Source of the DNA: Alkaliphilus pronyensis | GTDB taxonomy: Bacteria; Bacillota; Clostridia; Peptostreptococcales; Natronincolaceae | Length of the DNA: 64,000 nucleotides | Assembly (NCBI RefSeq): GCF_009017275.1 | Contig: NZ_WBZC01000001.1 | Span: 1-64,000 of the forward strand | Direction: 5' to 3' | In this document: one piece after another, positions 1-2,095 of the stretch | Layout: every line of letters starts with the position of its first letter | How positions within the stretch are numbered: the stretch's first letter is position 1 | Made by a program: the position numbers and the translations under genes | The notes under the pieces: generated by a model | Told to the model about the DNA's origin: nothing | Databases searched by the model: none | Seen by the model: the letters and a program-made list of their open reading frames with translations, nothing else

Positions 1-16
1 TTTGCACAAAATTTCA

Positions 17-164
17 TATAACGTTCCAGTGTTTACGACGTACCTGAGCCGGACCCTCTTGACACTCCCCCCTGGCGGAGCTTCGCTCCCGGTGAAGGGA
101 TGTGGTGCGCTGACCTTTCCCTAGAAACGTGCACTCCAGCACCTCCCGTAAACACATTGTTATA
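17..164 (-). other. attC-like foldable element (candidate recombination site)
   Basis: A GC-richer block in AT-rich DNA whose ends pair in two steps. TATAAC (17-22) pairs with GTTATA (159-164). After an unpaired spacer of 7 nt on one arm and 4 nt on the other, TGTTTACG (30-37) pairs with CGTAAACA (147-154). The interior holds further hairpins, including GGAGC-TTC-GCTCC near 76-88. An outer box, unpaired spacer, inner box and variable terminal structure is the layout of integron attC sites, and the length (148 nt) is near the top of the attC range. It lies just 3' of the GNAT gene, where an attC belongs in a cassette. The integron reading is inference; a MITE or a structured RNA is possible. 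Confidence 0.45.
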
Positions 165-221
165 GGAAGTAGCGACATCTTATAAGAATAAGACTACCAA
201 AACATTCCTACATATACTCTT

Positions 222-712
222 CTAATTAAAGCTTTTTTCAAACTGTGCTATTCTTATACCGTCTGGCATAGTCTTTACTTCTACTAAGTTAAATCCACAA
301 CCTGTATATAGTTGGATCAAATACTCTCTATCTTCATAGCAATCTAGCCTTAATTTTTCTTTCCCAACTGTTCTAGCATATTCTTCTATCCAATTTATCA
401 TTTTTCCGCATTACCTTGTCCTGTGTATTCCTTCTTGACAACAATTTTATTAATATAATAAGCTCCTAAGTGACTATTAGGTCCCCAAAAAAAATCATTA
501 CTTTTTACTAAAATAAATCCACCTATCGGAATGTTATTTATATATCCAATAAAACAATCTGGATCATTATATTTTTTAATAAATTCCTTCTTTTCAAGAA
601 ACTTCGTGTTCCACATAGGCTGCCCAATTTTAATTAACCATTCAGCTTTTTCCCTATACATACTTAAAAGAATTTCCAATTTGTCATAACCAATCTTCTC
701 AATTTGAAACAT
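222..712 (-). pseudogene. GNAT family N-acetyltransferase, frameshifted
   Basis: The first frame (712 to 398) encodes the N-terminal part of a GNAT acetyltransferase, ending in the acetyl-CoA-binding start GQGNAEK and then a TGA. The next frame continues at once from 401 to 222 with MINWIEEYAR, then LRLDCYED and YTGCGF, typical of the GNAT C-terminal half. Joined, they give a normal-length protein of about 163 residues. The break is at a run of five A on the coding strand (401-405); a sixth A would restore one frame. It could be a real mutation, a sequencing error or slippage on the A run. A GGAGG site lies 11 nt before the ATG. GNAT genes are common integron cassette cargo, and the neighbours fit that. 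Confidence 0.8.
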
Positions 713-1063
713 TGTGGTCTTATCCTCCTATTGATATCATTACATTGTAAAATATTACTACCTTGCATATGAATACTTAATTAAAGTTAAAAAAGCTTGC
801 ACAATTATATTTTGTAGTTTCTCTAAGTCTTGGAAATGCTAATTTTTTTTAGTAAATAATTTGAATCTATTAGTTCTTACAAAATTTAAAATCCAAACAT
901 ATACTTTGGTTGTTATTACCTATTTTTCAATAAACCCTAATAAGCATCTCTGATATAGCTATTTCCTATAACTACTTCATCTGCGACTGTCGTATATACC
1001 TCCCTATAGTAGTTATATCTGACGTAGTGTCGTATATATAGCCTATATAGGTAAGCTTAAATT
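713..1063. other. Intergenic stretch between recombinase and GNAT gene
   Basis: No coding potential was seen. The part nearest the recombinase carries the inverted repeat listed at 967-1017 and two direct copies of TGTCGTATATA (989-999 and 1029-1039, 40 bp apart). The rest is AT-rich and presumably holds the promoter of the GNAT gene; no convincing -35/-10 pair could be assigned. Confidence 0.5.
967..1017. repeat. Inverted repeat with TATAAC/GTTATA ends (candidate attI-like site)
   Basis: TATAACTACT (967-976) and AGTAGTTATA (1008-1017) form a perfect 10-bp inverted repeat around 31 nt. The end hexamers are the same as those of the foldable element at 17-164, so the two sites flank the GNAT gene in the same relative order. 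One copy of TGTCGTATATA lies inside the repeat and a second 40 bp further on. Position next to the recombinase suggests an attachment site or recombinase-binding site. This is inference from symmetry and position only. Confidence 0.4.
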
Positions 1064-2095
1064 TTATAGTCTATCTATTGGGCTAATTATTTTCTTCAGC
1101 GATTTTTTAGTAACGTGGGTATATATTTCTGTTGTCTTTGAGCTATTGTGACCCAGTAGCTCTTGGATGTATCTTAGATCTGTACCTCTTTCCAGTAGAT
1201 GAGTTGCAAATGAATGTCTTAGTGAATGGATGCCCACCTCTCGTTTTATACCAGCCTTCTCTAAAGCATTCTTAAAAATTCTTTGGGCACTTCTTTCAGT
1301 TAGGTTAGTGCTATCAGTGCCCTCGAATATATATTGCTGGGGCCTGTATTTTTTATAGTACTCTCTTAACTCCTGTAAAACAACCTCTGATAGTATTGTA
1401 TATCGATCTTTTCTACCTTTACCTTGATGAACTTTTAGAAGCATTCTGTTGCTATCAATGTCACTTAACTTTAGATTAACAGCTTCACTAACCCTTAGTC
1501 CAGCAGAATAGGTTAATCTCAACAAAAGCCTATGCTTGTGATTAGTTACTGCATCAAATATTTTCTTTACTTCTGTTTCACTGAGAACTTGGGGTAATTT
1601 TTTTTGTTTTTTAGGCCTTATAATTCTTTCAACAGTTTCTATATCATTAGCTACATATTCCACATAGAATTTGATTGAGTTTATAGCCTGATTAATATAA
1701 GAGTGGGAAAGGGATTCTTTGTCCAAAAGATATAACAAGTATTGTTTTATTGACTGACTATTTATATTACAGGTGTCATACTCAATATACTCTAGGAATC
1801 TTACAAAGTGACCCTTATAGGCCTTTATTGTATTTTGGCTATAGCCCTTAAGCTTTAAAGAATTAAGGAACTCCGATACAACAACTTGTACTCTTTGATT
1901 ATTATACATTCTTTTTATTTCTTCTAGTTTGCTATAAACCTCATCTGAATACTGAAATTCCCAACGTTTTTCTGTGGAATTCCATCTTCCGCCTCCAATC
2001 TGTCGGAGCTTTTCAACATATTTTTTTGAATAGGGGAATGTCACATATATTTCATTTAATAACACATTTATTTTAAAATCCATGACTTCCACCAT
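1064..2095 (-). CDS. Tyrosine recombinase/integrase with N-terminal extension
   Basis: 343 aa. The first ~65 residues form a small extra domain with a GGGRWN...RWEF motif. A SAM-like core-binding domain follows (about 70-160), then a tyrosine recombinase catalytic domain: Arg in AGLRVSEA, Lys in GKGRKDR, HSLRHS, LLGH and the nucleophile in EIYTHV. The C-terminus (SPIDRL) resembles the SPLD ending of Xer and integron integrases. The stretch between KGRKDR and HSLRHS is only about 58 residues, as in Xer proteins, so the extra helix region of classical IntI is absent. A later ATG at 2083 has a GGTGG site and may be the true start. It points the same way as the GNAT gene, with two symmetric sites downstream, so it could act on them. 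Confidence 0.85.
   Translation of the reverse strand: MVEVMDFKINVLLNEIYVTFPYSKKYVEKLRQIGGGRWNSTEKRWEFQYSDEVYSKLEEIKRMYNNQRVQVVVSEFLNSLKLKGYSQNTIKAYKGHFVRFLEYIEYDTCNINSQSIKQYLLYLLDKESLSHSYINQAINSIKFYVEYVANDIETVERIIRPKKQKKLPQVLSETEVKKIFDAVTNHKHRLLLRLTYSAGLRVSEAVNLKLSDIDSNRMLLKVHQGKGRKDRYTILSEVVLQELREYYKKYRPQQYIFEGTDSTNLTERSAQRIFKNALEKAGIKREVGIHSLRHSFATHLLERGTDLRYIQELLGHNSSKTTEIYTHVTKKSLKKIISPIDRL

Follow-up and report, generated by a model that had tools for sequence, protein, structure and literature searches.

A probable integron-like cassette-capture platform in Alkaliphilus pronyensis headed by a tyrosine recombinase without the IntI-specific segment

The window analysed here is the first 64 kb of contig C1 (90,597 bases) of a draft genome of 3.06 Mb in 94 contigs, with 99.5% completeness. 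Read on the minus strand, its beginning carries a recombinase gene (2095-1064), an attI-like site (~1045-960), a split GNAT gene (712-222) and a folded element (164-17) at the contig edge. A preliminary description had proposed this order of a recombinase, a GTTATA repeat, a GNAT gene and an attC-like element, and every one of these parts was found in its place. The gene at 1064-2095 (minus strand) encodes a tyrosine recombinase of 343 amino acids with a HARP-like N-terminal domain (approximately residues 8-60), a SAM-like core-binding domain and a catalytic domain. Adjoining it is the attI-like primary insertion site (960-1045, minus strand), in which direct repeats of TATATACGACA are found at 1028-1038 and 988-998, 40 bp apart, together with the core GTCGCAGATGAAGTA G|TTATAGG. 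The minus-strand GTTATA occupies 967-972, and the cassette boundaries would place the G|TT insertion point, the putative crossover, between 972 and 971. The first gene cassette (22-971, minus strand) extends from the attI G|TTATAGG up to the G of its own attC, and its own ends are complementary (GTTATAGGAAATAGC / GCTACTTCCTATAAC). The GNAT acetyltransferase cargo (222-712, minus strand) is divided between two overlapping ORFs (398-712 and 222-401) that separately cover positions 6-75 and 81-116 of PF00583, and the gene is therefore probably frameshifted. The attC-like site itself is 148 bp long (17-164, minus strand; CM R1, 169.5 bits, E 8.9e-32). Its outer R boxes are TATAAC (17-22) and GTTATA (159-164, on the plus strand), its inner L boxes are GTGTTTACG (29-37) and CGTAAACAC (147-155), and its centre is conserved. 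Positions 1-21 (minus strand) hold the start of the next cassette (TTATATGAAATTTTGTGCAAA).

An inverted match (159-179 with 952-972, 86% over 21 nt) links both ends of the GNAT cassette, and BLAST matches the attC-like element to 32 places in this genome, which argues that it is not a chance fold. Nearly all of these matches are on contigs C58, C59 and C84, mostly 0.7-1.5 kb apart. The window starts at the first base of its contig, so the further cassettes that the preliminary description had suggested looking for beyond the edge, separated by the same folded site, are present on these other contigs. Searches with nhmmer found 41 full or partial sites in the genome and a covariance model built from 24 sites found 36, giving a total of ~36-40 diverged attC-like sites, most of them in tandem arrays with one orientation and one gene per unit. 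Palindromic outer (R) and inner (L) boxes are present across the array. The attC core is AAC...GTTA with a variable NN, and is not strictly RYYYAAC/GTTRRRY. Contigs C58 and C84 both stop in the middle of a site, because repeats break assemblies. The same arrays are found in the single-contig genomes of two relatives (G019 and G003), and are thus not an assembly artefact. A few decayed, isolated attC-like sites also lie apart from the main arrays (L035 1765-5562).

The longest cassette ORF is on the array strand in 89 of 99 cassettes. Cargo on C58 comprises a glyoxalase, an Rce1-like protease, two GNATs, an APH-type phosphotransferase and a two-gene HerA-DUF4297 defence cassette. Both genes of this anti-phage defence system are contained in a single cassette of 3.1 kb (L031 11573-14630), the ends of which match at 16/18 positions. 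From a reading of the translations, other arrays seem to carry opposite-strand RelE/ParE-like toxins, HEPN and MNT proteins, Fic proteins and transposases.

The limits of the cassettes were examined by comparing the bases that follow the previous G|TTA with the attC end of the same cassette in reverse complement. For 27 cassettes in this genome, own ends agreed at 12.6 of 18 positions, whereas other combinations reached 8.8 (p=1e-10). The result was the same for 99 cassettes from several genomes (means 12.25 vs 8.82, p=3e-28), whereas the opposite ends of a single attC scored 8.83 in this set, which is chance level. A cassette start is therefore complementary to its own end and not to the ends of its neighbours. 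Agreement is increased at positions 5-9 and 12-14. At position 11 the start almost always has A and the reversed end has G, a combination that gives A-C (a mismatch) on the top strand and G-T (a wobble) on the bottom one. Cassettes of Flavobacterium enshiense obey the same rule (own ends 12.6/16 vs 8.1, p=1e-4); for Rufibacter the comparison covered few parsed cassettes. Complementary ends were also seen in one stretch of a class 1 integron cassette, and long own-end complementarity may not set the present cassettes apart from canonical ones.

Comparison between genomes identifies the cassettes as mobile units of gene plus attC. Genomes G000 and G008, which belong to different genera, share a cassette whose 568-bp body is 98% identical throughout; the similarity stops abruptly at CG|TTA, and the flanks are unrelated. 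Another pair from these genomes is 94% identical, and a pair from G007 and G016 is 90% identical. In their recombinase genes, G000 and G008 show differences at 38% of synonymous sites, so exchange of at least the first of their cassettes was recent. Three cross-genome pairs were inspected closely, and in two of them attC differs in its 3′ part despite a near-identical body, which points to additional homologous exchange between attCs. Two cassette copies in the single chromosome of G019 begin at G|TTA with ~922 bp of 99.7% identity and diverge beyond it (L121 9485, L120 9949), a recent duplication or partial replacement.

Folded alone, one attC element was not significantly more stable than its shuffles (z -1.45 and -0.82); the evidence for folding therefore comes from comparison and not from one fold. 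RNAalifold recovered only the inner hairpins of the clostridial attC, and the R and L boxes were therefore counted directly. The clostridial stem by itself displays modest covariation only. When the cassette's own start was added to attC, as in an excised circle, the bottom strand became 4.3 kcal/mol more stable than the array form (p=5e-13). The bottom strand also folds slightly better than the top, although the bias is small (0.86 kcal/mol, p=0.004). Covariation is strong in the attC of F. enshiense DK69, where 9 pairs of an 18-pair stem are compensated. The covariation and the bottom-strand bias support recombination through a folded bottom strand of attC, as far as alignments and predicted folds can indicate. 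None of the clostridial or Bacteroidota arrays tested matched an Rfam family.

The attI site is conserved among relatives. In most readable clostridial relatives it lies directly 3′ of the recombinase stop codon and consists of two direct repeats ~41 bp apart followed by G|TTA, the repeats being imperfect palindromes of the CGAAC..GTTCG or CGACA..TGTCG type. The genome studied here has two such sites, on C1 and at the end of contig C30 (L036 11190-11305), with a repeat spacing of exactly 40 bp in both; no family recombinase is near the second. The first cassette at the C30 site begins with 22 bp identical to the cassette start at window positions 1-22, and so one cassette seems to follow both attI sites or to be polymorphic.

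In several genomes the attI palindromes downstream of the recombinase are perfect copies of CGAACNNNNGTTCG, a Gram-positive LexA box (L110, L046, L048, L112), and in G347 one CGAACNNNNGTTCG box is also found upstream of the recombinase. A link between SOS and the platform is possible in some lineages. LexA binding was considered as the main role of the palindromes, given that they match CGAACNNNNGTTCG in many genomes, but was rejected because close relatives, this genome included, have CGACA...-type palindromes at the same spacing and because the repeats sit 3′ of the recombinase gene. A LexA box upstream of the recombinase (up to 2 mismatches) was found in only 2 of 18 relatives (G347 and G174) and not in this genome. 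For a Pc promoter directed into the array, no sigma-70-like sequence was matched at attI, and matches in the region were fewer than in shuffles.

The recombinase contains Phage_integrase and SAM-like domains, and Arg201, Lys226, His290, Arg293, His316 and Tyr325 are conserved in 20/20 aligned family members; by analogy these would be the catalytic residues. The gene is intact and under purifying selection, with dN/dS of 0.17 against the G008 orthologue and 0.14 in a second comparison. In G007, a member of the same genus and the genome with the most attC sites (77), the recombinase has one in-frame TAA (L039 1498-2562). The preliminary description had stated that the enzyme lacks the IntI-specific segment, and this was borne out. 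Alignment with IntI4 (2A3V) extends on both sides of a gap that sets query residues 246-265 against IntI4 180-242, and positions ~182-233 of TIGR02249 are unmatched in this genome and in eight other array-bearing genomes. The segment is absent from every family member examined. Moreover, no true IntI was found in the nine array-bearing genomes, in that none has a TIGR02249 match above cut-off. The NCBIfam model NF040815 (XerA_Arch, 'site-specific tyrosine recombinase/integron integrase') does score above its cut-off.

In a tree of 72 proteins, five IntI sequences form one clade with 100/100 support, apart from the clade of the window recombinase, which is also separate from the Xer reference rows. 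An AU test rejected the grouping of IntI with the clostridial clade (p=0.01) but not a grouping that unites IntI with all of the wider family and leaves Xer outside (p=0.10). IntI is therefore not nested among the clostridial enzymes, and the two may share an ancestor. An AlphaFold2 model (pLDDT 87.5) has a beta-beta-alpha-beta-beta domain at residues 8-60. The best match of this domain is HARP (PF07443), below the Pfam gathering score (E 0.0013 for the window protein and 1.3e-4 for that of G017). The best PDB match by Foldseek is IntI4, followed by XerA.

The preliminary description had envisaged a single module of a kind very rarely reported. A closer inspection of related genomes reveals instead a large platform that is common in one family, scattered in the class and has relatives in Bacteroidota. 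Sites matching attC were found in 15 of the 20 genomes examined in the host family (as many as 77 sites) and in 27 of 391 sampled genomes of the class. The recombinase was matched in 11 of the 20 and, at E<=1e-55, in 21 of the 391; related genomes have such sites adjoining it, the outcome expected under the preliminary description. Both occur together in 15 of the 391 class genomes, compared with 1.5 expected (Fisher p=2e-15), counts that ignore shared ancestry. A further 12 class genomes have attC but no recombinase match and 6 have the recombinase but no attC match. The searches of the sampled class scored few candidates per genome, and these one-sided genomes may thus be misses, losses or diverged sites.

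Bacteroidota also contain the wider recombinase family, both among the matches listed and in the tree; few clostridial names are among the matches listed in the search of genome contigs for related loci. Members of the clade lie beside at least 8 attC-like sites in F. enshiense DK69 and beside ~10 short attC-like repeats in Rufibacter. Repeats were also found next to family members in Seonamhaeicola and in a Bacteroidales MAG, downstream repeats being detected in some Bacteroidota loci only. On a predicted viral contig (IMGVR_UViG_2829729602_000005; L214 5001-9095), a recombinase with 53% identity precedes attC-like matches, of which two have E below 1e-4 and one is weak, and this is possibly a mobile version of the platform. 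A Chryseobacterium plasmid (NZ_CP041688.1; L315 8962-18948) has a family recombinase followed by many small genes on the same strand, a possible array. In Oceanirhabdus sp. W0125-5 (L153 4000-16834), several copies of a 185-300-bp repeat surround a related recombinase, without a match to the attC model.

Taken together, these data make it very probable that a chromosomal cassette-capture platform operating in the manner of an integron has its head in this window. Comparative sequence evidence establishes its units and their boundaries, attI, the arrays, the link to one recombinase clade, the absence of IntI and the transfer of whole cassettes between genera. The integron-like module and Xer-like route put forward in the preliminary description are supported by the further cassettes, the conserved attI, the complementarity of cassette ends, the inter-genus transfer and the lack of IntI. 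Most likely, the recombinase at 1064-2095 would insert circular cassettes, each of one gene and one attC, at the adjoining attI, with a crossover at G|TTA (972/971). On the evidence of comparative genomics, the same enzyme would most likely also excise or shuffle cassettes at attC sites. Excision would join the start of a cassette to its attC end and restore a long imperfect stem, folding best on the bottom strand, made up of an R box of ~9 bp and, beyond a constant mismatch or wobble at position 11, 3-5 further pairs. The substrate at attC would be folded single-stranded DNA, and the HARP-like N-terminal domain may replace the IntI-specific helix in recognising it. We lean slightly towards regarding this as a second kind of integron, in which a Clostridia-Bacteroidota clade, separate from IntI or a Xer-IntI intermediate, recombines folded single-stranded attC without the I2 helix by means of the HARP-like N-terminal domain.

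Recombination could alternatively act on double-stranded, dif-like sites with 11-6-11 arms at each attC end, as an ordinary Xer-type reaction in which no folded strand takes part. The recombinase indeed lacks the I2 adaptation, single-site folds are unremarkable, and attC ends read TTTCATATAAC-GTTCCA-GTGTTTACGAC, which resembles dif arms. We consider this unlikely, as it takes the circular form to restore the extended palindrome and the Flavobacterium hairpin contains compensatory changes. Moreover, there is a single crossover end, sharp at CG|TTA, and attC travels wholly or partly with the upstream gene.

Less probable still is a reading in which a different enzyme recombines the arrays, either a true IntI or the Xer of the host, and the adjoining recombinase is a bystander. 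The genome does have other tyrosine recombinases, and some attC-positive genomes have no match to the window recombinase. However, nine genomes are without a TIGR02249 match that passes the cut-off or spans positions ~182-233, attC and the recombinase co-occur strongly, attI adjoins the gene in most readable genomes and the same clade stands beside arrays in Bacteroidota. It is highly improbable that no cassette system exists and that the arrays are a dispersed repeat or MITE family which spreads by homologous recombination or transposition. Such a family would fit the conserved centres of attC and the independent exchange of 3′ halves, but not the cassette-specific pairing of ends, the fixed orientation, the single gene per unit, the exact boundaries or an attI beside the recombinase, and it has no Rfam entry.

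Chromosomal (sedentary) integrons resemble this platform in having attI beside the recombinase gene with two direct repeats ahead of the core, tandem attC sites with AAC...GTT ends, one-gene cassettes with whole-cassette mobility, and mixed cargo that includes defence and toxin-antitoxin genes. In contrast to them, the recombinase here is outside the IntI clade, is without the IntI-specific segment and has a HARP-like N-terminal domain; its gene is upstream of the cassettes and on their strand, there is no consistent upstream LexA box and the R stem is longer than the 7-bp core. XerA, XerC and XerD acting on dif share the fold, catalytic residues and core length, but here there is an extra N-terminal domain and a multi-site cassette array in place of a single dif. 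The patchy occurrence and many sites per genome are also unlike chromosome-dimer resolution by Xer/dif, and this is not a near-universal housekeeping recombinase. As with CALINs, an IntI-based tool would at most register clusters of attC without IntI, whereas these arrays have their own recombinase and attI, of another clade.

Integrons are described as almost missing from Firmicutes, where IntegronFinder 2.0 recovered one complete case (Limnochorda pilosa) and a few CALINs (PMC9024848). IntI is recognised, and defined, by its specific domain (PMC9668308), and it has been argued that a 20-residue I2-like domain was the innovation behind single-strand recombination (PMC4792948). The OTH-22-1 motif, compared here by description only, is likewise attC-like: the portion of its report available presents it as a probable novel attC-like structured DNA from several phyla and Archaea and, unlike the present case, attaches no recombinase or cassette system to it (PMC8632094). 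Searches of open PubMed Central text yielded no account of these arrays and none that names this recombinase as the enzyme acting on them. The platform is apparently new to the literature, provisionally so because preprints and subscription journals were outside this search. It functions like an integron but falls outside the IntI-defined family, because its recombinase has neither the defining domain nor a position in the IntI clade.

Dozens of cassettes accompanied by a recombinase without the IntI-specific domain make the requirement for that domain directly testable. The arrays also reveal recent cassette exchange between genera of anaerobes, and suggest that a class of gene-capture systems is being overlooked by current tools.
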